64,000 nt of DNA, taken from the NCBI GenBank assembly GCA_947598155.1, contig CANQFC010000005.1, forward strand, positions 145,115 to 209,114. Reading direction: 5' to 3'. Position 1 is the first letter of the stretch, and each line of letters begins with the position of its first letter. Positions 39,536 through 53,640 of this stretch are shown here, one piece after another. The notes beneath the pieces were generated by a model, which was not told the origin of the DNA, did not search any database, and saw nothing but the letters and a program-made list of their open reading frames with translations. The DNA is from an uncultured Clostridia bacterium (GTDB taxonomy: Bacteria; Bacillota; Clostridia; Oscillospirales; Acutalibacteraceae). A program made the translations under genes and the position numbers.

Positions 39536-40681
39536 TCAGTCTGTTCTTTCGTTGTGCAAAAAAGATAGTACTTCCATATAGTTATCCAAGTAAGCATCAA
39601 TATTAGTTATTTTATTTACCGAGTAATATAATCGCTTACTATCGGTAAACATAACCATAATATATTTACCAAAATCAAAGAAATCAATGCTTTGACTAGT
39701 CCTTACTTTTTCAACATCTATAGTCGTATTTGTTATTCTTTTAATTTTTTCCAATTCATCATTTGTTTTATTACACAAATCATATAATGCCGCTTTTCTG
39801 CAAACTTCATTGTCATATAATTTTACAGTTAGTACCATCAATGCAGATATTTCACGATAAGCTATAGTTCCTTCTATTCCTGTTCCTTTATCTCTAAAAG
39901 GTTGATATAGAACAGAAAAAGGGAGCGTCATTGCAGTTATAATTACATTCAGTGCCATAAGTTCAATTTCTTCTGTACTAAACTCACTCAAATCTTCCTT
40001 ATGGTTCATAAGTTCCTTTAGTACAAGAGGAAATTCCTGCGCTAATTTCTCAGATGCAAATTTGTCAGCTTCAAATTCAAAGTCACTGTTAATATCATCG
40101 TTTGCTTTCAACAAAGCAAATCTTTTATAATTATCTGAAATATTAGCAATGTGGCCTTTCGTATGATGCCCTATTTCATGAAGAACCAAAAAGCGGAGAG
40201 CCGCCTCAGTTATCATGTAACTTATTATTCTTTCATCCTTATATCCTAAAAGGCTATCGTCATTTCTCACCACCAAAACACCTTCATTGTTTATAAAAAT
40301 CTTTTTAGGTTTAAACTTTTCCATTGGGAAATCACTTTCAAATAATGAGCCGATCATTAAATTAACATTGTGCTCTATTTCTGTAACGCTCCCCATATAT
40401 AGCCCTATTATCGGTATACTCTTTATTGAAGTAGAAATCGCATTTGTACTACTGTCATTTATAAGGATAAATTCTGAATCAGGCAAATATTTTTTGTCGT
40501 TTTCATTTATTCCGAAGGGCAAACTAACATTCGACTCATTTTCATTATACTCATACCCGCGTGCATTCATCTCCGGCATATAAATGTATGGTTCACTTGC
40601 CGTTTGTAATTCTCCGTGTTTTTTAATATAAGCACCTATATCATAAGCTGACAAAGTAATGTTTTCATAAGACAAGTTCAT
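39536..40681 (-). CDS. HExxH zinc metalloprotease, possible defence effector
   Basis: 381 residues. The zinc motif HEIGHHTKGH is at about residues 183-192, and a third ligand is likely in FEFEADKFASEKLA about 35 residues later, as in gluzincin M48-like and Lit-like peptidases. No membrane anchor is clear; a weak hydrophobic patch follows near 245-262. The start is the ATG at 40681 with AAGGTAAC upstream. It overlaps the upstream gene by 17 bases, so the two form one unit under a palindromic promoter. The target is unknown; Lit, a comparable protease, cuts EF-Tu during phage infection. Confidence 0.7.
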   Translation of the reverse strand: MNLSYENITLSAYDIGAYIKKHGELQTASEPYIYMPEMNARGYEYNENESNVSLPFGINENDKKYLPDSEFILINDSSTNAISTSIKSIPIIGLYMGSVTEIEHNVNLMIGSLFESDFPMEKFKPKKIFINNEGVLVVRNDDSLLGYKDERIISYMITEAALRFLVLHEIGHHTKGHIANISDNYKRFALLKANDDINSDFEFEADKFASEKLAQEFPLVLKELMNHKEDLSEFSTEEIELMALNVIITAMTLPFSVLYQPFRDKGTGIEGTIAYREISALMVLTVKLYDNEVCRKAALYDLCNKTNDELEKIKRITNTTIDVEKVRTSQSIDFFDFGKYIMVMFTDSKRLYYSVNKITNIDAYLDNYMEVLSFLHNERTD

Positions 40682-41261
40682 ATTTGTTACCTTTTAATTT
40701 AATTACTTTTTTACTGATCAGCGACTCTACGGCCTTATCAATCATCTCACTGTCTGACCATTTATTGCAATTGCCGTCATCGTTTAAATTGCCGCATTTT
40801 GAATTATTATAAGTGAAACTGCATTTACATGAATTTTTCAGTTCAGTTAAACTAAGAGCTCGTGCTTCCTTCAATTTATATGCAATACATTTTTCCATGT
40901 CAGTTAACTTTACTAAAGAATAATCCACACCGAATATCGCCAATAAAAACGAGGCAATGCCTTGTGACATTGTAATATCGAATATTAGACATATTAAAGC
41001 AAGAGTTGTATATTTTATATTTATATGGTATGTTTGATGAAAAAACATAAAACCAAATACACCTGTATCAGAGCTCTTATCTTCTAATGGATATGAAGTC
41101 TTTTTTATAAAGCACTCATCATCTGATAACAATCCTTCATTATTATGTATTATGCTAACCAGCAAGGCTGCATTTGCTTTATTACAAGCAATATTTTCAA
41201 CCATACTATTCTCAATTTCATCTTCTGTTCCCGTCTTTTCAAAATAATCATTTGTTTTCAT
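40665..41261 (-). CDS. Membrane-associated protein with C-terminal winged-helix-like region
   Basis: 198 residues. A hydrophobic stretch lies in the middle (about 80-110, TTLALICLIFDITMSQGIASFLLAIF is the core, quoted only in part by position). A Cys group CKCSFTYNNSKC follows, then a C-terminal segment (SDSEMIDKAVESLISKKVIKL) that looks like a winged helix. The start is the ATG at 41261, behind AAGGAG; the upstream in-frame ATG at 41282 lies inside the operator. It probably regulates, or is regulated with, the overlapping protease gene. No family name is assigned. Confidence 0.55.
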   Translation of the reverse strand: MKTNDYFEKTGTEDEIENSMVENIACNKANAALLVSIIHNNEGLLSDDECFIKKTSYPLEDKSSDTGVFGFMFFHQTYHINIKYTTLALICLIFDITMSQGIASFLLAIFGVDYSLVKLTDMEKCIAYKLKEARALSLTELKNSCKCSFTYNNSKCGNLNDDGNCNKWSDSEMIDKAVESLISKKVIKLKGNKYELVL

Positions 41262-41281
41262 GACAATTCTCCTTGTAAACA

Positions 41282-41330
41282 ATATAATAGTATTTGTTCT
41301 ATTATATCACAAAAATTAGCTTTTTTTCAA
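41282..41330 (-). promoter_or_regulatory. Promoter and palindromic operator of the winged-helix/protease pair
   Basis: On the minus strand: TTGAAA (41325-41330), 18 bases, TATAAT (41301-41306). A perfect 9-bp inverted repeat ATATAATAG-N8-CTATTATAT (41282-41307) covers the -10 box and the likely transcription start. Confidence 0.65.
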
Positions 41331-41381
41331 CTGAGCGTTAGACCATATAAAGCTTGCTACACTTTGAAAATCAAATCAAAA

Positions 41382-42389
41382 TCATATAATATGAGTTAAA
41401 TCAAATTTCCCCAAATGATTTTTGGATATATAGTCCAATAAATTCATCGCCTTTCTGTCTGTATCGTCCGGAATAATTGTGTTTAGCTCTAAATTCATGC
41501 CTGAAAATCGTAGATATTTGCGCTGTTTTATATTCATTTCAGTAAAAAGTTTACCATCCAAGTATCCAATCTTAAAATAGTCTTCTTCGTTTCCGTATAT
41601 CGATCTATAATTTTTATTTGTATGTTTCTCTCCATCAAAAGCTGCTATTGAGTCTACTAACGGTAAAGTAATTTTATATGGTGTAACCTTTATACGCCAA
41701 TCAAAGAAGGACACATTCGGCACGCAGTCCGGCAAAGGACAATTTGCAAAAAGACTATTCCCCTCCAACTCCATGCTGTTATCTTCCGATGAAAAGAAAT
41801 CTTTATCAGAAAAATTATTGTTTTCAAGAATATCTTTTGGTTCAAACGAATAATAAAAATCAGTGTTAATAAAATGCATTAGTTCGTTTTGCTTGGCAAA
41901 ATCCAATTTTGAGAAATATGTTTTAAATGACAATTTTGTGTTATCTTTTAAGCATAAATTGAATGACAATAAATCAAATTTAAAAAAGAAAACATCCAAA
42001 AAGAAGTGTTTCATATTATCGGAAATAATCTTTGAATTTATCATCTCTGCCTGTTCAATTATTACCCCATGATATTTGGCCTTTTGAATGGCACCCGCAG
42101 TAAACGACTTTGTTGTAGTCGCAATAATAAAGTCCAGACCTAAATCTTCACGCTTTTGAATTAGTTGCTCTATCCACATTACATTTTCAGCATGGCTTCT
42201 GTCTCTGCATTCAATTGCAATTTTTCTATTGAATCCTTTAGAATCCAAATATTCAACCAACACATCAACTTCTCTGTTTTCATTTGCCGCTTTATCAAAA
42301 ACATATGCAGGACATGTTACTGTATATTTTTCATCTAACTCATATAGCCATTCATACGCTAATTCAAAATCTCTACCTTTTCGTGCCAT
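41382..42389 (-). CDS. Mrr-like restriction endonuclease family protein
   Basis: 335 residues. The N-terminal 110 residues form a PD-(D/E)xK-like nuclease core: GRDFELAYEWL, then REVDVLVEY (metal Asp), then IAIECRDRSHAENV, where E-C-R takes the place of the usual E/Q-x-K, and a later helix with IQKAKYHGVIIE. The C-terminal two thirds is not recognised and may be the target-recognition part. It sits between the protease pair and HerA with its own palindromic promoter, and is AT-rich like the rest of the island. Nuclease activity is likely but the Lys to Arg change should be tested. Confidence 0.7.
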   Translation of the reverse strand: MARKGRDFELAYEWLYELDEKYTVTCPAYVFDKAANENREVDVLVEYLDSKGFNRKIAIECRDRSHAENVMWIEQLIQKREDLGLDFIIATTTKSFTAGAIQKAKYHGVIIEQAEMINSKIISDNMKHFFLDVFFFKFDLLSFNLCLKDNTKLSFKTYFSKLDFAKQNELMHFINTDFYYSFEPKDILENNNFSDKDFFSSEDNSMELEGNSLFANCPLPDCVPNVSFFDWRIKVTPYKITLPLVDSIAAFDGEKHTNKNYRSIYGNEEDYFKIGYLDGKLFTEMNIKQRKYLRFSGMNLELNTIIPDDTDRKAMNLLDYISKNHLGKFDLTHII

Positions 42390-42400
42390 TTCAAATCCCC

Positions 42401-42417
42401 CTATAATTTAATTATAG
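42401..42417 (-). promoter_or_regulatory. Operator-like palindrome over the -10 box of the nuclease gene
   Basis: CTATAATT-T-AATTATAG, containing TATAAT on the minus strand (42411-42416) before AGGGGG and the ATG at 42389. The rest of 42418-42647 shows no gene. Confidence 0.5.
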
Positions 42418-42647
42418 CATATTTTTGATTCTCTTTCTACCTGTTTTACAACCTCACATAGTTGTGCTATCCTTAAGGCATTACTTTTAGTGAGGCGACT
42501 TATGAGAAATATATATCGAACACAGAAGGTTAGAATAAAAAATAATTTGATAATTCACCTTCGAGGCTTAGAATGTTTTGATTTCACCATAAGAATGTAA
42601 ATAGAAAAAGCTAATGAATGTCATATAAATATTGAGTTTATAGAATA

Positions 42648-42696
42648 AAATCAACCCTCTATCGAAAACTAACGGTTTAGATATGAGGGTTGATTT
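42648..42696 (-). terminator. Terminator after the HerA gene
   Basis: AAATCAACCCTC (42648-42659) pairs exactly with GAGGGTTGATTT (42685-42696), with inner TATC/GATA pairing. It sits 7 bases beyond the HerA stop and separates HerA from the nuclease gene. Confidence 0.7.
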
Positions 42697-42702
42697 AATT
42701 TA

Positions 42703-44400
42703 TTATATCTTTGTTTGTCTTCTTAATGATTCTATTGCAACGTCCAAAGAGTTATCGGTGTTTTCTTTTGACCATTCTGACCAAAATCCTATAGTCGCAC
42801 TATTTGGTTCTGGATTAGGCCTATTGATATTAATTCTACTTGGCAATAAACTCGCATCACCCACTACCAGAGCTTCACCAACATCTAAAATTGGTAAAAG
42901 TTCGCCAAAATTGCCAAGACTGTCTGGTAATAATTTTTTAATAACATTTTGATCATCCGCATTGGTTAATCGCATCGCAATAAAATTACTGCTCTGACTC
43001 AGTACTGTTCTATCAACTTCTGACGGTCTTTGAGTTATTACTACTAAACCTATACCATATTTTCTGCCTTCCTTAGCAATTCTTTCAAAATTAGTTAAGC
43101 TCTGTGTCTCCATACCTTGCTTTGTATTTTGAGGAATATAAAGATGTGCTTCATCGCAAAAAATTGCAATGGGATTGATTTTTTCTCTATCTGTCCATTG
43201 TTGAACACTAAAGATTAATCTTGCTACCAACGATACAACTAACGGTAACACATCAGAAGGAACTTCCGAAAAATCTATTATTTTTACTCCTCCGTTATTT
43301 GATGCCGGCAACATAAGCTTTGAGCATAATTCAAACATATAATCATAATTCAGAAGAGACTCATCACTGGAAAACAAAAAATTCAAACGCTTATCCATAA
43401 CTTTGTTTTCAAGCCTTTGTATGAATCTCGAAAGAGTTCCGTTGAAGTCACCTTTTTTAGGCTTATTATTTGCACCGGGTACCATTTCCTCATTGATATG
43501 ATTTAGTTCTCTTAACAGAGCATTAATATCATATGGTATGGGACTGTCAATAGTAATATCTTCAGCAATATCAGTTTTTTGAATATTATTTAGAAATTCT
43601 CTTTTGCATTCTAAAACAGTTCTACTAAAAATCATTGCTTGGTTAGGTGCATTATTATCTGAACGGTCTATCATCATAGAAGTCATTTCTTCATATGTTA
43701 ACAGCCAATAAGGAAGATATATAAACTCATCTTCCACATTATCTGATGGACCAGCAATTTTATAATGCTTTATATTTTCGCCCGTTATAGGTTCATATTC
43801 TCCATGTATATCAAACACAACTGCATTTGAGGACTGTAATTTTGCAATTTCTTCTATAAGTGTAGCTACTGTACAAGACTTACCAGACCCTGTACTTCCA
43901 ACTATTACAGCGTGTTTTTGAAACAGTTTATTTCCATCTAAATATGCTATGGCTTCCTTATTCAAGGTATAGTTTCCGATTTTTAACGAATTATCCTTGC
44001 CCTCTGCATTTACAGATAAAACGCTCATAAAATTACTTAAATCTTCATTGCTCATTACATAACATTGAGCAGTTATCTCAGGAACTGATTCTAAAGTTCT
44101 TTTAAAAACATTTTCTTTTGTTCCAAATTTGTCTAAAAGAGTTCCGATTAATGTTATTTTAACAATATCATCCTTCTCAATCTCATCACTGTCATCAACC
44201 ATTTCGCCAAATTTTCTGATAATTTTATTAACCATTCCAATCAAAGTTTGCCTTTGCTTAGAGGCTTTTATAACGACAAGATTATTTACCTGTATTTCTG
44301 ATAAGACATCATCATTTTCAACCTTTACAACAATGCTTGCCGTATCAACTGCAATAACATTACCTATTAAAAAGTCATTTTTAAATTCAAATAAACTCAT
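42703..44400 (-). CDS. herA: HerA-type ATPase, partner of SIR2
   Basis: 565 residues. An N-terminal HAS-barrel-like region precedes the RecA-like motor. Walker A is IVGSTGSGKS at about residue 168, followed by VVFDIHGEYEP. Walker B is IAIFCDEAHLYIP near 416, then the arginine-finger/sensor region ITQRPSEVDRTVLSQ and MRLTNADDQ. HerA hexamers move DNA. Fused in operon to SIR2 they form the SIR2-HerA (Nezha-like) anti-phage complex, in which the assembly depletes NAD+ and can act on DNA. The start is 9 bases after the SIR2 stop with a consensus AGGAGG. Confidence 0.87.
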   Translation of the reverse strand: MSLFEFKNDFLIGNVIAVDTASIVVKVENDDVLSEIQVNNLVVIKASKQRQTLIGMVNKIIRKFGEMVDDSDEIEKDDIVKITLIGTLLDKFGTKENVFKRTLESVPEITAQCYVMSNEDLSNFMSVLSVNAEGKDNSLKIGNYTLNKEAIAYLDGNKLFQKHAVIVGSTGSGKSCTVATLIEEIAKLQSSNAVVFDIHGEYEPITGENIKHYKIAGPSDNVEDEFIYLPYWLLTYEEMTSMMIDRSDNNAPNQAMIFSRTVLECKREFLNNIQKTDIAEDITIDSPIPYDINALLRELNHINEEMVPGANNKPKKGDFNGTLSRFIQRLENKVMDKRLNFLFSSDESLLNYDYMFELCSKLMLPASNNGGVKIIDFSEVPSDVLPLVVSLVARLIFSVQQWTDREKINPIAIFCDEAHLYIPQNTKQGMETQSLTNFERIAKEGRKYGIGLVVITQRPSEVDRTVLSQSSNFIAMRLTNADDQNVIKKLLPDSLGNFGELLPILDVGEALVVGDASLLPSRININRPNPEPNSATIGFWSEWSKENTDNSLDVAIESLRRQTKI

Positions 44401-44409
44401 ATTTTCCTC

Positions 44410-45408
44410 CTATATTATTTCCAAGAAATTTTCAAGTTTCCAATATTCTCCGTCAATTTCATACTCTTGTTTATCGATGATTACACGAGTTTTATTTTGC
44501 GGTGCCTCTATAAGTACGATATATCGCTGAGCTTTATTATTAATCAACGATAATGCCGCATCACTTAGTTTTTTAGTTACAACTACTATAGGCTTCCCCA
44601 TAGCAATATTTCTTAAAATATTCTGCTGAATTTGGCTATCGTTAAATCCATAGCCTATACACAAATAGCATTTGGCGTTATTAATAATCTCATTTGATTT
44701 AGTGAAAATATTTACATATGTATCAGTAGTTAATATAGTTTGATATTTGTTAGAACCCGGCGTTACGATTTCCGGAATAAATCCATTTGGTATTTTATAT
44801 TGCAATGGAATGCAAATATTTTCTTTAGTTTCAATACTGTGAAAAGTGTCTAAAGAGCCATGAACCTTTAGAAGATTCACCACATCTTTCTTTTTTAATT
44901 CATCGTTATTGAGAGTTTTTAGATATAGTCCATCAAATCTATTATCAATTTTAACTCCACAAATATCACAGCAATATTCAATATATCTATCATAATTTGT
45001 CGTGATTATATTCACATTGTTATAACAAGTTGACATTAGCTTTGTCAGTAACTCGCACAATGGTTGCCGTTCTCTTAATAAAACTTTTTTATTAAAAAAA
45101 TTCAAATCATATTCAGTTACGAGTTCCCAAGTCAATTTAACTATATCAGTCAATATATCTCCCTTGACATCAATCCCGGTTAAAGCGGACTCCAAATCAA
45201 TGCCTTCATCCAGTCTGTCGGATATTTTGCGCCAATTAGGATTATTTGCATATTTATCTTTCAAATTGGTTTGTAAATATTTTGACAATTCATTCATACC
45301 AGGTATCCCAGCAGGAATTGAGATGCCTGTTCCTGCTAAAACAACAGGAGTATCTGTAATATATGCTTGTACCGTTTTAAATACTACGTCCTTATTTTTA
45401 TCTTCCAT
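44410..45408 (-). CDS. SIR2-like NADase, partner of HerA
   Basis: 332 residues with a SIR2 domain. The NAD-binding motif LAGTGISIPAGIPG is near residue 22. The conserved ITTNYDRYIEYCC carries the catalytic Asn/Asp region, and LLKVHGSLD carries the His. YLCIGYGFNDSQIQQ is the second nucleotide-binding part. In defence systems such SIR2 proteins cleave NAD+ on infection and kill or arrest the cell. The gene is first in the pair with HerA, preceded by AGGAGAG and a promoter region shared with the divergent GNAT-like gene. Confidence 0.85.
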   Translation of the reverse strand: MEDKNKDVVFKTVQAYITDTPVVLAGTGISIPAGIPGMNELSKYLQTNLKDKYANNPNWRKISDRLDEGIDLESALTGIDVKGDILTDIVKLTWELVTEYDLNFFNKKVLLRERQPLCELLTKLMSTCYNNVNIITTNYDRYIEYCCDICGVKIDNRFDGLYLKTLNNDELKKKDVVNLLKVHGSLDTFHSIETKENICIPLQYKIPNGFIPEIVTPGSNKYQTILTTDTYVNIFTKSNEIINNAKCYLCIGYGFNDSQIQQNILRNIAMGKPIVVVTKKLSDAALSLINNKAQRYIVLIEAPQNKTRVIIDKQEYEIDGEYWKLENFLEII

Positions 45409-45475
45409 ATTCTCTCCTATAATATTTATTTATTATTAAAAATGATTCTCAATAATTATATAATTGCTAATCTCC

Positions 45476-45509
45476 AATGCAGGATAACTGTTTGTTATCG
45501 AAGGTGGAT
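45476..45509 (+). repeat. 34-bp inverted repeat, left copy (leader of the GNAT-like gene)
   Basis: Exact inverted copy of 47214-47247. It contains the palindrome GATAAC-TGTTT-GTTATC and the ribosome site AAGGTGG, and ends 4 bases before the ATG at 45514. Confidence 0.9.
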
Positions 45510-45513
45510 TCAT

Positions 45514-46512
45514 ATGATAGATAAACTTGATTATACATTTTCTATAAAGAGAATAAAAAAAACTACTGATACAGATTATATAAATGCTATTAAAATATAT
45601 AACGATAAAATCCCTTATGAAATAAGAACTCCATCAAACGAAATAACAATGTGGTTAAATAATGAATCCAAAAACAATCCATTTGAGTTATTTTGCTTTG
45701 TTCTATATTTCAATAATGAAGTTGTTGGATTTGCTATGGAAACCTATATCAAAAGAAGCAAAATTATGTTGGGTGAATATTTATCATTGAAGAATGAGTT
45801 CGAATTTGAAACTATAATTTTTGCATATATTGATTTAATTAGGAATTATTATAAAGCTCGCAATATCGATATATCTTTTTTTGTTGACGAAATCAGCTAT
45901 AAAGATTCAGGTAAAAACATAGATAAAGAAAGTAAACTTTTCAAAAAAATGTTATGCGTTCAAGGTTATGGAGAGGTTGAAGCATTACATACAACGCTAC
46001 CATTAGGCCTTAATAATTTTGAAAGTTCTTTTACTGCAAAGATTTATATAAAAGCTAATGATGATATTAACGAAATCTCAAAAGACACCTATTTACAAAT
46101 AATTGAATCAATATATTATGATTATTATGTATCATGGTATAAAGATTTTTTCACTGAAATACAATTTGATAAATACAAGAAAAAAGTCGATACATTTTAT
46201 AATAATATTTGCAATGAACTAATTAAAAAAAATAAATTACATGTGACTTATGCGGATTGCCCAATTTTAAGAGAACGACAACACTCATTTGAATCAATAA
46301 CTATACCGACAAAAGCATCTAACAAAATTTTATCTTGGATAATAATTATATTATTAGTTTTGATTTTGCCCCCACTTATAACTTATTTTTACACATTGAT
46401 ATTAGAAACAACAAAAATTGAAATGAATAGTGTAAATTCTGTTTTAGGTGAAAGCATAAGTGGAATACTAACATTTATTTCTGCTTATGTAGTATATAAG
46501 AAGAGATTATAA
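45514..46512 (+). CDS. GNAT-like protein with two C-terminal membrane helices
   Basis: 332 residues. The front half looks like an N-acetyltransferase fold (FVLYFNNEVVGFAMETY then RSKIMLGEYLSLKN and a long helix IIFAYIDLIRNYYKA), although the acetyl-CoA loop is not clear-cut. Two hydrophobic segments at about 275-300 and 308-328 should anchor it to the membrane. The start is the ATG at 45514, with the ribosome site inside the inverted repeat; the longer frame from 45367 has no ribosome site. It converges on the methyltransferase gene with a 6-base overlap. Function unknown. Confidence 0.65.
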   Translation: MIDKLDYTFSIKRIKKTTDTDYINAIKIYNDKIPYEIRTPSNEITMWLNNESKNNPFELFCFVLYFNNEVVGFAMETYIKRSKIMLGEYLSLKNEFEFETIIFAYIDLIRNYYKARNIDISFFVDEISYKDSGKNIDKESKLFKKMLCVQGYGEVEALHTTLPLGLNNFESSFTAKIYIKANDDINEISKDTYLQIIESIYYDYYVSWYKDFFTEIQFDKYKKKVDTFYNNICNELIKKNKLHVTYADCPILRERQHSFESITIPTKASNKILSWIIIILLVLILPPLITYFYTLILETTKIEMNSVNSVLGESISGILTFISAYVVYKKRL

Positions 46513-47208
46513 CTTCTTTAAAGTAACTATAATATTTCCTGAAAGTTTTTTGGTTACAATGTGCCTATTTAAAACTTTATCAAATTTATTAAACTTTTCT
46601 GCAATAAATTCATGCTTTGCAAATAAAGAATCGATTATATGAAATCCTGTAACATCTAAAATCTTAATGCTATTATAACTCTCTATAATATTCATAATAT
46701 AGTTATATGAATATATCCATTGTTTTTGATCTTTCCCAAGATAATCAGTACTTATAATTGATGCATCTTTTTTGTGTTCTTTAGTAAACAAATATTCCAA
46801 ACTATTACTATTTTCAAATTCAAGTATTATAATACCGTCAGTATTCACAACACGTATTAATTCAGAAATGGAAGCTATGGCATCAGTATAGTTTATGACA
46901 CTTCCCACACATATTGCTCCATCAAAGTAATTCTCATCGAATGGAATAGATTCGATGCTTCCTATTGTATATTCCGTACAATTATTAACTTTATTCTCAG
47001 CAATGTCCATATGATGCATTTTACAGTTAAGGTCATAACTGTTACCCGCAGAACCTGCATTTAAAATATAATTACATTTAGTAATCGGACTTTTATGCAA
47101 ATAATTCCAAATGAAATTATATGAGTAATTGTACCAATAAGAATTAGACCATACATTTTCTGCTGTTTCATAAAATTGTTTTGTTTCAGTTAAATTTAAT
47201 TTTTCCAT
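46507..47208 (-). CDS. SAM-dependent methyltransferase, convergent partner of the GNAT-like gene
   Basis: 233 residues. The class I fold is supported by motif I ILNAGSAGNSYDL, the acidic MDIAENKV, IESIPFDENYFDGAICVG and the post-III region VVNTDGIIILEFE. The substrate is unknown. Its leader, including the AAGGTGG ribosome site, is identical to that of the convergent GNAT-like gene, so both should respond to one regulator. Codon use is AT-rich as in the island. Confidence 0.75.
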   Translation of the reverse strand: MEKLNLTETKQFYETAENVWSNSYWYNYSYNFIWNYLHKSPITKCNYILNAGSAGNSYDLNCKMHHMDIAENKVNNCTEYTIGSIESIPFDENYFDGAICVGSVINYTDAIASISELIRVVNTDGIIILEFENSNSLEYLFTKEHKKDASIISTDYLGKDQKQWIYSYNYIMNIIESYNSIKILDVTGFHIIDSLFAKHEFIAEKFNKFDKVLNRHIVTKKLSGNIIVTLKKL

Positions 47209-47213
47209 ATATT

Positions 47214-47247
47214 ATCCACCTTCGATAACAAACAGTTATCCTGCATT
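47214..47247 (-). repeat. 34-bp inverted repeat, right copy (leader of the methyltransferase gene)
   Basis: Exact reverse complement of 45476-45509; ends 5 bases before the ATG at 47208 on the minus strand. No matching target-site duplication is seen outside the pair. Most of the rest of 47248-47827 is AT-rich and without a gene. Confidence 0.9.
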
Positions 47248-47480
47248 TGTTTGATATATTGCCAAAAATTTTATATCATTGTTTCCTTATAACAATAACA
47301 TCTTGGTTCTTTTATACCACATTTTTATTGTTTTTCAAATATAGATTGCATAAATATCAATAAAAATGACATAAATGATGAATTATCATTAATTCTTGCA
47401 CTTGACATCTCGACATCCTTCTTTCACATCATAACAAAGTTTATATGCTACGAATATGACTGACATCTGTATTTTTCATA

Positions 47481-47560
47481 TTTTTTAAAGTTCTATTGAT
47501 CGATTCGCTCTCAATTTGAGATAGCCCATAGAACAAAGCAATCAACAACTTACTTTAAAT
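47481..47560 (-). pseudogene. Serine recombinase gene remnant
   Basis: On the minus strand one frame reads SKLLIALFYGLSQIESESIN. It matches the segment SELLITLFSGLSQAESESIS of the recombinase at 48551-50179 and is followed by an unrelated frame. It is about 27 codons long and has no start or stop of its own. Confidence 0.65.
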
Positions 47561-47827
47561 TTTTATTCTCCATATATATACAACAGTTAAAAACGCCAAA
47601 ATGTGACAAGAAATTTAAAATTTATTTAAATTTTAAGAAAATGAAAAAATACTGTTTATATTTTTTGCCCTTGATAAAAAGAACAAGTGTGACAACCAAT
47701 TAGAATGGTATATTCTATTAGTTCATCCAAATGTTTTCATTTCAATATAAGTATATTTGTGACGCTCGGACAATTCAGCACAGTTAGCAAAAACTTAGTA
47801 AAAAAATTTGAACTATAGTCCGAAGAT

Positions 47828-48550: not shown

Positions 48551-50179
48551 TTACATCTTTGCCTCTATCTTTATCCCATCCTTGAAATAAATGTGCAATT
48601 TATCTTTTGATATTACTTTAATGCACTCTATTAGCTGTCTAACTACAAGGTCGTTATATTCCACAGGATGATTTTTAAGTCCTTGCATAATTACAGTCAT
48701 TTCTTCTATGGAATCGGCGGTGGTTTCGATTTTTGACTTGCTTTTTTCAATTTCATCTAGTTCATCCTTGATCGCGTACATCTCTGCGTATAGGCTTTCA
48801 AATTGCGTGTCAAAATCGCCGTTTTGAGCCGCTTCGCTATCCATATCAGTAAGCTTGTTGATACGCTCCTGAATCGTCTTTAAACGCTCTTGCTTGTGAA
48901 AAATACTGCTTGTATCCTGATTGTGTTGATACATTTCTATATGCCTGCAGATACGGTCAACATCAGCATTTTCCATATGTGCTTTTTGTGTAATTGCTTC
49001 TGCAACTGCATTGTGCAATATTGATTCTTCAATTGAAGGTGAATCTTTACAGTATTTTTTACCGTAATCAAGTCGGCTAATGCACCGCCATACAATTTTT
49101 TTCTTTCCGTTTTTTGACCATGTGCATCGGCGGTACGGTGTTCCACAGTGGCCGCAGTATAGGATTTCGGATAAGGCATACTTACTTGAATATTTACCAA
49201 GTTCTGTTTTAGTGCCGACCTGCTTAACTTTTTTCTTACTGTTTCTGCGTGAGATTTCTTCCTGTACTCTGTCAAATACGGCTCTTTCAATTATGGCAGG
49301 ATGATTATTTTCAACATAGTACATAGGCAGTTCGCCATTGTTCTTTTTTGATTTTTTGCTTATGCAGTCAACGACATATGTCTTTTGCAGTAAGGCATCG
49401 CCCTTGTATTTTTCGTTTGTCAGTATCGACTGAACTCTTGCAGATGACCAATTTGTTTTGCCTCTTGCTGTCGGAATTTCGTCCGCCGTTAGTCCTTTCG
49501 CGATATCAAGTAAGCTTTTTCCCGCAAGGTATTCAGAAAATATTCTGCGGATTATAACTGCCTGTTCTTCATCAATTTCGGGCTTGCCGTCTGCTCCTTT
49601 GCGATAACCGAGGAATGATTTATAGCTGAACGGCACATTTCCGTTTTTTAGGCTCTGCCGTTTTCCGATTTTAACATTCATACTGATGGATTCGCTCTCG
49701 GCTTGGGACAACCCGCTAAATAAAGTGATTAGCAGTTCGCTTGAAACTTGAAGCGTGTTGATACCCTCTTTTTCAAAGATAATCGGTATTCCCATCTCTT
49801 TCAGTTCTCGGACATAAAGTAGGCAGTCAAGATTATTTCGTGAAAACCGTGATACCGATTTTGTAATGATTAAATCAATTTTACCTTTTCGGCAATCTTC
49901 AATCATACGCATGAAATCGGGGCGTTTCTTAGCAATTGTACCTGTAATGCCCTCATCAGCGTATATACCTGCCATTTGCCAGTTTGGTTTCATCATAATC
50001 ATTTCCGTATACATTTCTTTTTGTGTCTCGAAGCTATGTTCCTGCTGTTCTTTATCTGTCGAAACTCGGCAGTAGGCGGCAACGCGCTTGGGACGTATAT
50101 CAATTCGGTTTTCGCCTGAAAATTCAGGTTTCGGCGGTATGATTCTGACCAATTTCGGTGCAGATCGTGTTTGCATCAT
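48551..50179 (-). CDS. Large serine recombinase (third of the cluster)
   Basis: 542 residues. The resolvase domain starts VAAYCRVSTDKEQQ with catalytic Ser at about residue 40, then YADEGITGT, LIITKSVSRFSRN and LFSGLSQAESESIS. The recombinase domain, a zinc-ribbon (LYCGHCGTPYRRC) and a coiled-coil region complete the typical large-serine-integrase plan. It catalyses integration and excision of the element. It overlaps the preceding recombinase-like gene by about 50 bases, with AAAGGAG upstream of its ATG. Confidence 0.92.
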   Translation of the reverse strand: MMQTRSAPKLVRIIPPKPEFSGENRIDIRPKRVAAYCRVSTDKEQQEHSFETQKEMYTEMIMMKPNWQMAGIYADEGITGTIAKKRPDFMRMIEDCRKGKIDLIITKSVSRFSRNNLDCLLYVRELKEMGIPIIFEKEGINTLQVSSELLITLFSGLSQAESESISMNVKIGKRQSLKNGNVPFSYKSFLGYRKGADGKPEIDEEQAVIIRRIFSEYLAGKSLLDIAKGLTADEIPTARGKTNWSSARVQSILTNEKYKGDALLQKTYVVDCISKKSKKNNGELPMYYVENNHPAIIERAVFDRVQEEISRRNSKKKVKQVGTKTELGKYSSKYALSEILYCGHCGTPYRRCTWSKNGKKKIVWRCISRLDYGKKYCKDSPSIEESILHNAVAEAITQKAHMENADVDRICRHIEMYQHNQDTSSIFHKQERLKTIQERINKLTDMDSEAAQNGDFDTQFESLYAEMYAIKDELDEIEKSKSKIETTADSIEEMTVIMQGLKNHPVEYNDLVVRQLIECIKVISKDKLHIYFKDGIKIEAKM

Positions 50180-51044
50180 TTAAAGGCAGCTCCTTTCGTA
50201 TGATTTTATTGTTTTTCAGTTTTAAACAGACTTTTTTGTCTTTATCAATTGTAATAGCTGATACCGTTCTATCGAATAATCTCGTATTAAATGCTGAAAG
50301 CGGACTTGATTGCTCAAAGTCCGCTTTCAATCTATCTGTAATGTGTCGAACACCTTTATACGCATCATACTTTTTCGTTGCACATTGCAGTATCATATTT
50401 TGTATTTCATTTTTATCGAAGTCAATAGATTCAAGCTGCCGTTCAATCTCATTTTCCATTCTGATGATTTCAAGAGACGGTTCAGCCTGAATATCTGTTT
50501 CTTCATATTCCGTAATTTTGGGGGTTGATATTAGTAAATTCAGTATTTCCGTAATTTCATGTTCAAGTTCGGCAACAGTCATATACACACTAAACTTACA
50601 GCCTTCATTTTTACAAAACCACTTTTCACTATTTTTAAGTCTGCTGTCCGTATTGTGGAATAATCTCCTTTCACAGTTTGAACAGATTACTTTATTTGTA
50701 AGCAATTTCTTTTCTGCTGTTATTACAGGGTTTATGTTTCTTATTCGGTTATTCTTTTCGACATTGGCTCTTTGGAAAGTGTCCTTGTCAATTATTGCAG
50801 GATAATTGTCACCACCGATATACCGCTTATCTTCAATCATACGCTTAATACGGCTTTTGTTCCAATTATATTCGCCGGGCAAAAATTCAATCTGATTTTC
50901 TGTAAGCCTTTCGGCAATATTCTTTAAATTTTCCCCGTTCAGATATTGACTGAATATTTGTTTAACTGTATCGACTTCTTTTAAGCATATTACAATCAAG
51001 CCGTTTTGCATTTCATATCCGTACGGAAACCGCCTGTTTTTCAT
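50124..51044 (-). CDS. Recombinase-like protein lacking the catalytic resolvase domain
   Basis: 306 residues. It begins directly with the recombinase (DNA-binding) domain: FPYGYEMQNGLIV, EVDTVKQIFSQYLNGENLKNIAERL and WNKSRIKRMIEDKRYIGG. A zinc ribbon follows (ICSNCERRLF.. KNEGC) and then a helical region. There is no Ser-containing resolvase core, so it cannot cut DNA alone and may act as a targeting or accessory subunit. Its ATG overlaps the TAA of the upstream recombinase gene (TAATG), with GGAGG eight to ten bases before it. Confidence 0.85.
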   Translation of the reverse strand: MKNRRFPYGYEMQNGLIVICLKEVDTVKQIFSQYLNGENLKNIAERLTENQIEFLPGEYNWNKSRIKRMIEDKRYIGGDNYPAIIDKDTFQRANVEKNNRIRNINPVITAEKKLLTNKVICSNCERRLFHNTDSRLKNSEKWFCKNEGCKFSVYMTVAELEHEITEILNLLISTPKITEYEETDIQAEPSLEIIRMENEIERQLESIDFDKNEIQNMILQCATKKYDAYKGVRHITDRLKADFEQSSPLSAFNTRLFDRTVSAITIDKDKKVCLKLKNNKIIRKELPLNDANTICTEIGQNHTAET

Positions 51045-52606
51045 TAGTGTTTGCACCTCCTGCGGTCGGGAATAGCTTCTGTAATCATTAAATTACCGAT
51101 CAACTTAAAGCATACATCTGTTTCAGTCGGAAATGTGATTTCTTCAACCATACTTTCAAATATTTTTTCATCAAATTCGGTTATAGGACTTTCTATATCT
51201 GATAATAAATCATTTAATGTGCGAAGTCCTGATAGGATGCTGTTTTCGTCTTGTTCTTTTAACAACTGTCTTCGTTTGCTTCTCAGATTATTTACACATC
51301 CGTTTATACTACCGCTTTGTTCGGCATATTCAGAAGGTCGTATAATACCTTTCGTATTCAGTCTTGCAAGCACAAAGCTTTTGTTGTTAAATTCAGCGAT
51401 TTGTCTATCAATTTCTTTGATTTTAGCAGCTAATCCGCCTGCTTTCATTTGCAGGCGTTCAGTTTGTATGATAGCCGCAGGTAAAATATCCGCTCGGCAA
51501 ATTCTTAATTTGTTTATCATTGTAACAAACGCCTCATAAATATCTTTTTCGGGTATTCGGCGTGAATCACATTTGCTTCTGCCTAAATTGTGTTTAGTAC
51601 ACTCCCAATATTTTTTACTGTTTACGGTAAGCGGTTTGAATGTTGAACCGCATTTACAGCGTATTTTCTGTGTTAACGGATAAGTTACCGCCTTTTTACG
51701 CTGATTTTCAAGGCTGTTGTTTTTTATAAGTTTCTGTACCATTTCAAAATCCGCCCTTGATATAATAGGCGTATTTGTATTTTCTACATAATATCTTGTC
51801 TTTTCTCCTCTGTTGGTCTTTTGAATAAACGGTACTGTTTCGGTTTTAAAGGTCTTTTGAAATAACGCATCACCGATATACCTTTCGTTAGTAAGGATAT
51901 ACTCTATTGTTGCAATTCTCCATGATGTTACATCTTTGCGTTTCGGAGCGTTCATTTCATTCAGCATATCGGCAATTGCTTTTTTGCCCATACCTGAGAG
52001 GAAACTTTCGAAAATCAGTTTGACAATTTCTGCTTCTTTTTTCTCAATAACATATTCACCGTTAACAAGCTTATATCCGTAAGCTGTATGGCTTGCTATA
52101 AATGTGCCGGCTTTCATTCGATTTTCAATGCTCCATCTCATATTTTTAGATATTGAAATAGATTCTTCCTGTGCCTGAGCACCTGACAGAGCAAGCAACA
52201 ATTCGCTTGACATATATGCTGTATCAATATTTTCCTTTTCAAACAGTATGCTGACACCGTATTCTTTCAGAAGCCGTGCATACATAAGAGAATCGGCTGT
52301 GTTTCTTGCAAAACGGCTGACCGATTTTGTTAGTACGCGGTCAATTTTACCCTTTTTGCAATCCGCAATCAGCCGATTGAAATCGTCACGCTTAGAAGTT
52401 TTTGTACCTGTTATTCCTTCATCCGCATATATATCGGCAAGCTCCATTCTCTCGTTATCACTGATGAATTTTGTGTAATACCGTACCTGTGCAGCAAAGG
52501 AATGAAGTTGGTCGCTTGAATCGCTTGATACACGGCAGTAAGCTGCTACACGGAATATTGTTCTCGGCTGTACGCTCGGTGCTATTGTAACTAATGTGTT
52601 TTTCAT
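51044..52606 (-). CDS. Large serine recombinase (first of the cluster)
   Basis: 520 residues from the ATG at 52606, chosen because AAAGGAG lies just upstream; a longer frame to 52645 lacks a ribosome site. Catalytic Ser is at about residue 27 in AAYCRVSSDS, followed by YADEGITGTKTSKRDDF and VLTKSVSRFARN. The recombinase domain, the zinc ribbon (IRCKCGSTF..CTKHNLGRSKC) and a coiled coil follow. It forms an operon with the two following recombinase genes, a layout seen in clostridial integrative elements. Confidence 0.92.
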   Translation of the reverse strand: MKNTLVTIAPSVQPRTIFRVAAYCRVSSDSSDQLHSFAAQVRYYTKFISDNERMELADIYADEGITGTKTSKRDDFNRLIADCKKGKIDRVLTKSVSRFARNTADSLMYARLLKEYGVSILFEKENIDTAYMSSELLLALSGAQAQEESISISKNMRWSIENRMKAGTFIASHTAYGYKLVNGEYVIEKKEAEIVKLIFESFLSGMGKKAIADMLNEMNAPKRKDVTSWRIATIEYILTNERYIGDALFQKTFKTETVPFIQKTNRGEKTRYYVENTNTPIISRADFEMVQKLIKNNSLENQRKKAVTYPLTQKIRCKCGSTFKPLTVNSKKYWECTKHNLGRSKCDSRRIPEKDIYEAFVTMINKLRICRADILPAAIIQTERLQMKAGGLAAKIKEIDRQIAEFNNKSFVLARLNTKGIIRPSEYAEQSGSINGCVNNLRSKRRQLLKEQDENSILSGLRTLNDLLSDIESPITEFDEKIFESMVEEITFPTETDVCFKLIGNLMITEAIPDRRRCKH

Positions 52607-52712
52607 TGTGTTCTCCTTTCTGCAGTTTTCATCTGCCGTTGTCACTGTTTTTCAGTGCAACACTACAATACTACGATAGTTCGAATATATCCAGCTATTT
52701 TTGTTAGATTTA

Positions 52713-52892
52713 TCAATTCAGACATAATAAATTTTTGTCCAAAACGAGAGAGGCTCCATAATCGTCCGACGCTATTTTAATAATACCGTTCAGATCCTTT
52801 TCATTTAAATATCCCATATCGGATAATATCTTTAGCATACAAACTTCGTAATAAAAAGCACTGTTTGATTTTGTTTTTTCAGAAATATTCAT
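52713..52892 (-). CDS. Small protein downstream of the MazF-like toxin gene
   Basis: 59 residues from the ATG at 52892, which has GGAGGG about 8 bases upstream; the longer frame to 52922 was not used. The sequence is a mainly helical, acidic protein (MLKILSDMGYLNEKDLNGII) ending in a short strand. It overlaps the end of the MazF gene by 14 bases, so the two are co-translated. It is not recognised as a known antitoxin family, but its size, charge and position fit an atypical antitoxin or an accessory protein of the element. Confidence 0.55.
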   Translation of the reverse strand: MNISEKTKSNSAFYYEVCMLKILSDMGYLNEKDLNGIIKIASDDYGASLVLDKNLLCLN

Positions 52893-53250
52893 TTTTAAAG
52901 CCCTCCAAGTACTCAATTCCAAAACTGATTAAGATTGCTTTATCAATCCGTTTCATTGTTTTGTTATCCATTGTACCAACGAACTTTCCGAGGCGTGATT
53001 TATCTATTGTTCTGATTTGCTCGAGCAAAACCATTGATTTCTTTTTCATGCCGTTTGCCGTGAAGATAACATGAGTAGGCAGATACGTTTTATGTATCTC
53101 GCTTGTGATTGCCGCCACTATTGTTGTACCGCTGTGTAAATTTCCTTTATTGTTTTGCAGGATAACCACAGGACGGATACCGCCTTGCTCCGAGCCCAAA
53201 ATCGGGCATAAATTGGCGTAATAGATTTCGCCTCGTTTTATTTGTTCCAT
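52879..53250 (-). CDS. PemK/MazF family toxin (endoribonuclease)
   Basis: 123 residues from the ATG at 53250, behind GGAGGCGAAG; the frame to 53286 was rejected. Family motifs: KRGEIYYANLCPILGSEQGG, IRPVVILQNN with the catalytic Arg, the TTIVAAITS strand with Thr/Ser, and VLLEQIRTIDKSRLG. MazF toxins cut mRNA at short sequences. No MazE-type antitoxin precedes it; the overlapping small gene downstream is the only candidate partner. Confidence 0.9.
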   Translation of the reverse strand: MEQIKRGEIYYANLCPILGSEQGGIRPVVILQNNKGNLHSGTTIVAAITSEIHKTYLPTHVIFTANGMKKKSMVLLEQIRTIDKSRLGKFVGTMDNKTMKRIDKAILISFGIEYLEGFKNEYF

Positions 53251-53277
53251 TTTCTTCGCCTCCGTTAATAAGTAAAA

Positions 53278-53640
53278 GGCGGCCACTTATCTAAAAAAGG
53301 TAAACGACCGCCTGTAATTTTGTATCAATCGTTTTCAGCCGATATTTGAACCACGCCAACCCCTCGACTAACGGGAACGCATTTTCCGGCCATGCATTTG
53401 GCCTCATTGGAATCTCACCACTCCGAGGATCTCTCCGAGCCGCTCTCCTTTGTTGCGACGGTCTTATCACGCTCGACTTTAGGACTAAACAGAAGTATCA
53501 TTATTGCCTCTGCCTGTCATCGCCTTCGTGCAGATTGCCTGCATCGTCTGAGTCCTGAAGGCACTGAAAATCAATGCGTTCGCTCATGTAGCTTGTCGGT
53601 TTTAGCCGACAGCAGAGGGAATGTAAAAAATGCGCTGTAC
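53278..53640 (-). other. Gene-free GC-rich leader region, possibly structured RNA
   Basis: About 360 bases between the boxA-like site and the MazF gene with no supported ORF. It holds hairpins such as GGCGG..CCGCC (about 53278-53310) and TGTCGG-TTTTA-GCCGACA (about 53590-53610). The base composition is well above the AT-rich neighbours. A short 28-codon frame on the minus strand lacks a ribosome site. A leader RNA of the mobile element is the simplest reading. Confidence 0.35.

Follow-up and report, generated by a model that had tools for sequence, protein, structure and literature searches.

The Locus and Its Question

Why should two unrelated bacterial genes that run toward each other begin with the same leader? 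The question is raised by a 1.7-kb block in the window (the whole 64,000-nt stretch of DNA that was analyzed), which is bounded by two 34-nt sequences in inverted orientation (45476–45509 and 47214–47247) that are 100% complementary, exactly as an earlier note made from the letters of the sequence had described. By a rough estimate, the chance of finding an exact 34-nt inverted pair within 5 kb is far below 1e-9 and is negligible. The note offered two explanations for this arrangement: joint control of both genes through a shared operator, or inversion of the block between the repeats. Our answer, to which we give a probability of about 0.82, is that the block is in origin an invertible cassette, the two repeats being core sites, in inverted orientation, for a tyrosine recombinase of the XerC/D-like type.

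Both copies of the repeat contain the palindrome GATAAC-TGTTT-GTTATC and the ribosome site AAGGTGG, and the left copy stops 4 nt and the right copy 5 nt short of an ATG, so that the common leader is confirmed; the core at 45482–45499 reads GGATAA-CTGTTTG-TTATC and leaves 6 nt of the repeat outside it. The two open reading frames (45514–46512, plus strand; 46507–47208, minus strand) converge with the 6-nt tail-to-tail overlap that had been noted (Table 1). Within the genome from which the window comes (2,135,579 bases in 33 contigs), the pattern GATAACN5GTTATCGAAGG occurs with zero mismatches at these two places only; three more places carry it, each with 3 mismatches.

Table 1. Features of the window and gene pairs (payloads A–J) carried between sites of this kind.
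Feature	Position or location	Strand	Basis or remark
Left inverted repeat, proposed recombination site	45476..45509	+	Exact 34-nt match; core conserved in relatives
Right inverted repeat, inverted copy of the left site	47214..47247	−	Exact 34-nt match; pattern search of own genome
Promoter-like TTAAAA-17-TATAAT outside left repeat, pointing inward	45436..45464	+	Consensus match only
Promoter-like TTGTTA-16-TAAAAT outside right repeat, pointing inward	47268..47295	−	Consensus match only
Cassette gene 1, GNAT-like protein, 332 aa	45514..46512	+	Homologs adjoin the methyltransferase in 19 other loci
Cassette gene 2, class I SAM methyltransferase, 233 aa, UbiE-like	46507..47208	−	PF08241 Methyltransf_11
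Relic of tyrosine recombinase 3′ flank	47560..47687	+	Similarity to recombinase 3′ flanks elsewhere
Payload A: GNAT-like / methyltransferase	Window and relatives		
Payload B: carbamoyltransferase / nuclease-like STAND protein	Own genome C5:65912–70901; G049		
Payload C: ATP-grasp / AAA protein	Own genome C28		One site; cut by contig end
Payload D: D-Ala-D-Ala-ligase-like / STAND	G040, G041		
Payload E: two ATP-grasp genes / TPR protein	G003		Outermost gene reads outward
Payload F: SHMT-like PLP enzyme / STAND-TPR	NZ_CP018188		
Payload G: polyprenyl synthetase / 330-aa membrane protein	CP020439, NZ_MN480762		
Payload H: ligase-like / AAA protein	A. cryaerophilus		
Payload I: ATP-grasp + tRNA-edit domain / AAA protein	H-bearing A. 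cryaerophilus plasmid, second locus		
Payload J: ligase-like / STAND	Paenibacillus plasmid		

The first cassette protein has a predicted membrane segment near its C terminus (residues 272–290). Its description as GNAT-like is weak: in the family, 4 of 15 members match Acetyltransf_1 (best E 0.0025) and one homolog carries a GNAT annotation in its record, and the window protein itself gave zero matches in a Pfam search. The methyltransferase scores 29.8 bits against PF08241, above the cut-off of 21.2. The earlier note had wondered whether the pair could be an undescribed defense or toxin-antitoxin module; neither protein matches a PADLOC family at E up to 0.1, though defense genes do stand next to the cassette. 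The GNAT-like protein has no match in the phage collection, and when viral contigs were scanned with the methyltransferase alignment, 42 stretches matched a pattern, none of which was confirmed. A match of one viral contig (L008) to the repeat pattern was set aside as chance; this contig is GC-richer and of phage type, and no related genes were seen on it.

Adjoining the cassette on the left are SIR2 (44410–45408) and HerA (42703–44400) defense genes with strong PADLOC matches; the stretch from 39536 to 45408 has the makeup of a SIR2-HerA type defense locus, with an Mrr-like ORF (41382–42389) downstream of SIR2/HerA and an ORF (39536–40681) that matches CapP weakly. On the right, 580 non-coding bases are followed by a 187-aa ORF that matches nothing in Pfam or PADLOC and then by large serine recombinase ORFs, which start 1.3 kb from the cassette. 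These stand three in a row (48551–52645; two examined with Pfam, the third being ORF 50124–51056) and probably make up the integration module of a separate mobile element. A small ORF beyond them (52879–53286) resembles MazF/PemK toxins by eye.

Recurrence of the Gene Pair and Its Sites

Homologs of both genes were found side by side by tblastn on a Streptococcus salivarius plasmid, on an Aliarcobacter faecis plasmid and in a genome of the same genus as the window (G002). When 84,980 species genomes were searched with a methyltransferase alignment, 21 loci were confirmed from 51 candidate stretches; with duplicates counted once, there are 24 methyltransferase loci, and a GNAT-like partner is present in 20 of them, convergent every time. 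The earlier note had proposed looking for the two homologs together with repeats at their flanks, and the pair does co-occur with matched leaders: an inverted repeat of at least 17 nt surrounds a common core in 18 of the 20 loci that hold both homologs, spanning Bacillota, Bacteroidota, Fibrobacterota, Verrucomicrobiota, and Campylobacterota. The exceptions are a locus in which the partner is truncated near a contig end and one site only was seen (L019) and another that is missing the start of the methyltransferase and in which one site was seen, without a repeat pair (L026).

The two sites of a module belong to each other. A site score of at least 17 was reached by the module's own pair in 29 of 30 modules, by 13 of 824 cross-pairs between unrelated modules and by 38 of 46 cross-pairs between related ones, the related and unrelated groups being assigned by the analyst. 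The 7-nt spacer is equal at both ends in the modules in which a repeat was found, 29 of the 30, and spacers mostly differ between unrelated modules; that of the window is CTGTTTG. The bare site pattern is, by itself, a non-specific marker of modules: it is present in 37 of 118 genomes, and in 8 of 16 fetched stretches (L122, L123, L124, L126, L127, L128, L129, L130) a lone site lies remote from any module. One further stretch (L125) holds a recombinase and one site, with no inverted partner seen in the part fetched. The lone site in the same-genus genome G034 (L122:5056–5073) lies behind a FeoB-like gene and has the core of the window, read from the other strand; cassette and recombinase are both absent nearby.

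Repeats extend inward to the ribosome site, in some modules through the start codon, and hardly extend outward (exceptions are L118, with 12 nt, L018, with 11 nt, and L117); promoters should therefore lie outside the sites and translation signals inside. Promoter-like sites show no excess around the window cassette (19, against a shuffle mean of 23.1; not significant) or in L010 (15, against 14.6 in shuffles). Across the outward flanks of 26 modules the excess is slight: the mean promoter score is 7.48 against 7.03 in shuffles, a value reached by 15 of 200 shuffles, and 5 of 52 flanks score at least 10 of 12 where 1.7 are expected.

A separate observation concerns cassette ends at which two site cores stand in tandem (L009:4559–4605 and L119:4429–4476; also L027, L028, and L031). 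The inner spacer of G002 equals that of the payload B module in the window's own genome, and tandem cores could be traces of nested cassette insertion.

A Tyrosine Recombinase beside the Pair

A XerC/D-like tyrosine recombinase of one family adjoins the pair in 16 of the 24 loci; in the other 8 it was not found in the fetched flank, several of these stretches being short or truncated. The protein is nearest to XerA, XerC, and XerD and falls below the curated cut-offs (XerC, 233 bits against 335; XerD, 221 against 330), and the copy in the window's genome has the catalytic domain PF00589 Phage_integrase (E 6.9e-41). Of the 16 loci, 9 have the gene on the methyltransferase side and 7 on the GNAT side, a division that flipping of the cassette would be expected to give, and in the recombinase tree opposite orientations adjoin one another (L017/L027, L023/L031, L018/L022, L010/L014). 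This neighbor is presumably the enzyme that acts at the repeats. The three serine recombinases of the window, which had been proposed as possible partners, are set aside as the inverting enzyme because it is the tyrosine recombinase that recurs beside the pair, the related loci having been scanned for the tyrosine type. Modules are sparse among the genomes searched: a query with the S. salivarius recombinase (E up to 1e-50) matched only the window's own genome among 398 genomes of the phylum, and a query with the recombinase of that genome matched 7 of 118 relatives.

In the window itself, tblastn found neither a recombinase gene nor a fragment of one. What stands in its place is a relic: 47560–47649 is 82% identical over 93 nt to C5:214256–214348, directly behind a recombinase gene, and the relic is 79% identical over 85 nt to C5:63095–63179, behind the other recombinase gene. 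These two stretches are its only copies elsewhere in the genome (E up to 0.01). It also matches G002 (75% over 123 nt), where the similarity runs into the start of a neighboring primase-like gene. Judging by this 3′-flank sequence, the window cassette evidently once had a recombinase gene on its methyltransferase side, which has since been lost. The contig of the window still carries two related recombinase genes, C5:214360–215376 and C5:63202–64224, which lie about 22 kb and about 126 kb from the cassette; in the more distant one the upstream part of the alignment contains a TGA, and there is an open 312-aa ORF.

Both Orientations in Relatives

The window cassette itself was seen in one orientation; two pairs of relatives hold a cassette in both. 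In A. cryaerophilus, the plasmids pACRY43158 and pM830MA are 99.9% identical and in direct orientation on both flanks, and the 3,458 nt between 17-nt repeats are 99.9% identical and inverted, with breakpoints at the repeats; the payload is not the GNAT/methyltransferase pair but a D-Ala-D-Ala-ligase-like enzyme opposite an 823-aa AAA/STAND-like protein. (On pM830MA the gene for this protein is annotated as two overlapping ORFs, L135:1937–4407.) The GNAT/methyltransferase cassette itself is inverted, at 91% identity, between S. salivarius pSaLI10 and S. suis strain 15; the limits of inversion are the outer repeat ends, and the flanks are direct at 86% and 73%. Another S. salivarius plasmid, NZ_CP040803, agrees with pSaLI10 in orientation and is 100% identical to it across the 2.9 kb that were compared. 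Inversion between the repeats, one of the two explanations offered in the earlier note, is thus strongly supported by relatives, through the 18 of 20 loci with repeats, the 9:7 division of recombinase sides and two inversions seen directly.

Several contigs break at these sites. The pattern GATAAYN5RTTATC occurs at 7 places in the window's genome (0 for the reversed control), and at 3 of the 7 a contig ends exactly at the site (C4 and C5 end, C28 begins). Both site-bearing contigs of G009 (2 of 2) end exactly at the site; among four site places in G041, one lies 1 nt and another 31 nt before a contig end. Such breaks suggest mixed orientations, which would have this effect on assembly; mixed strain payloads would have it equally. 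In G003, both ends of the cassette are joined to a nearly identical flank (81 nt, with a small difference beside the site), which suggests either that both orientations are present or that there is a real long repeat. The right ends of C4 and C5 in the window's genome (G000) both finish in GGATAATAGATTGTTATC; one side carries recombinase, primase-like, and TraG-like genes, the other relaxase-like genes, and together they make up a second slot of the same kind, the cassette of which is missing from the contigs.

Apparent Exchange of Payloads between Sites

Ten payload types were seen between sites of this kind, the GNAT/methyltransferase pair (A) and nine more (B–J; Table 1). An enzyme stands opposite a STAND-, AAA- or TPR-type protein in 8 of the 10, some of these assignments being weak (payload H, E up to 0.0087; payload E, TPR only); a strict P-loop is present in B, D, F, and J and absent in C, E, H, and I. 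In payloads A and G the enzyme stands opposite a membrane protein.

Closely related recombinases carry different payloads. The recombinase DNA of the B locus in the window's genome is 98% identical to that of the A locus in G002, the recombinases of H and A in Aliarcobacter are 97.8% identical, and those of A, F, and G in Streptococcus share 95% protein identity; in each case the payloads differ. Alignments of near-identical recombinase loci stop at the sites, where the payload changes. Beside such sites, the Kiwa genes KwaA and KwaB were seen in two genomes (L043:7362–8905 and L119:8154–9682; 66–68% identical to each other), the copy in L043 beginning at the position of the outer site of G002; these genes may be a further cassette.

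Discussion

On the reading that we prefer, the XerC/D-like tyrosine recombinase would use the repeats as its inverted core sites, and the 1.7 kb that they enclose would be an invertible cassette, in which two unrelated genes face head-in and tail to tail. Recombination from site to site would flip the block and place the other gene beside each outside flank; transcription would be supplied from outside the cassette, and the ribosome site, which lies inside the repeat, would therefore travel with either cassette end. The earlier note had also suggested that inversion switches which gene faces which outside promoter; inversion is seen in relatives, and although the promoter scans are weak (15 of 200 shuffles), switching is plausible, and we infer that inversion would switch expression. 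In relatives the recombinase gene lies just outside one site, and in the window it has evidently been deleted while the sequence behind it was kept. With that gene lost, the window copy would be frozen unless one of the two related recombinases on the contig acts on it in trans, by which route it might still flip.

A plain operator accounts for less of this. If one regulator bound the palindrome and controlled both genes jointly, with no inversion, it would be clear why each gene has the palindrome immediately ahead of its ribosome site, and the window's want of a recombinase gene would be no surprise; however, spacers and flanks vary freely between modules and yet the two copies within a module match, no regulator recurs beside the pair where the tyrosine recombinase does so in 16 of 24 loci, and the two-sided placing of that recombinase and the inversions in relatives are left unexplained. 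We consider this reading very improbable. It is also unlikely, if somewhat less far-fetched, that the block arrived as a single unit, a transposon or gene cassette with the repeats as its terminal inverted repeats, and does not regularly invert. Payloads are indeed replaced between sites with otherwise similar flanks (A. faecis against A. cryaerophilus; the Streptococcus plasmids), and two sites stand in tandem at some ends, but the recombinase lies outside the repeats, and near-identical flanks hold one cassette in both orientations.

Whether the window cassette, once invertible, is now a locked remnant left by loss of its recombinase is a matter of even odds. The deletion of the recombinase with its flank relic kept points that way, as does the contig, which is unbroken at the two sites of the window, unlike at other sites in the genome; on the other side, both genes are open, the repeats are still identical across 34 nt, and two related recombinases persist on the contig with sites of the same arms.

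DNA inversion is usually encountered either as a switch that turns a promoter on and off or as a means of selecting among variants of a single surface protein. In the modules described here, entire genes that are unrelated to each other swap places, and in very many cases the two are a small-molecule enzyme and a STAND-type or TPR protein. Recombinases that are related to one another accompany different gene pairs, each set between matched sites, and the plasmids and integrative elements concerned come from several phyla. The modules offer a testable rule, namely the same recombinase and the same arms with a pair-specific spacer. They also provide a natural case of apparent cassette exchange between inverted sites, and they raise the question of why an enzyme and a sensor-like protein must not face one promoter. 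One guess, prompted by the payload pattern alone and in our judgment doubtful, is a mating-type-like two-state switch on plasmids and integrative elements, in which the enzyme orientation would mark a producer and the STAND/TPR or membrane-protein orientation a responder. The producer enzyme (ATP-grasp ligase, carbamoyltransferase, PLP enzyme, polyprenyl synthetase or methyltransferase) would make a small molecule that the STAND/TPR or membrane protein of the responder would sense; tail-to-tail placing in an invertible cassette would keep the two apart, and the recombinase would exchange whole cassettes as well. If this were true, the GNAT-like membrane protein and the methyltransferase would be one of at least 10 such pairings.

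A report on pneumococcal acetylation and methylation, in the part considered here, concerns different genes (PMC12324116). Inversion cassettes with an enzyme/STAND or GNAT/methyltransferase pair were described in none of the matches listed in the published literature, preprints aside.

Known systems share single traits with these cassettes. The dif site of XerC/XerD has ATAA and TTAT arms around a short spacer. The cassettes resemble it in recombinase family and in having such arms and a short spacer; unlike dif, their sites are paired and inverted around genes and have module-specific spacers, and their recombinase falls below the XerC and XerD cut-offs. In the tail-fiber segments of phages Mu and P1 and in the R64 shufflon, convergent genes lie in an invertible segment with the recombinase gene outside; these genes are alternative versions of one adhesin, and Mu and P1 use a serine recombinase. 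The enzyme/STAND pairing of the cassettes is not known from those segments. The systems are among those mentioned in PMC5903667. At the phase-variable pneumococcal hsdS locus, the tyrosine recombinase PsrA inverts DNA between inverted repeats; as the parts considered of these reports describe it, homologous specificity genes are mixed there, whereas the cassettes swap two whole unrelated genes (PMC7096588, PMC4948785). The nearest known kind is found in Ureaplasma, where UU172/UU171 and mba/UU376 undergo phase-variable inversion with alternating expression of neighboring genes and a Xer-type tyrosine recombinase has been proposed (PMC3047005, PMC3599477). UU172/UU171 is, like the cassettes, a two-gene inversion at short inverted repeats (PMC3047005). 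As far as the parts considered of those accounts describe them, the Ureaplasma genes encode surface antigens that share N-terminal parts, whereas the genes of the cassettes are unrelated (PMC3047005, PMC3599477); unlike in Ureaplasma, so described, the cassette repeat precedes the start codon (in some modules it extends into the first codons), most copies have the recombinase close by, and elements exchange their payloads.
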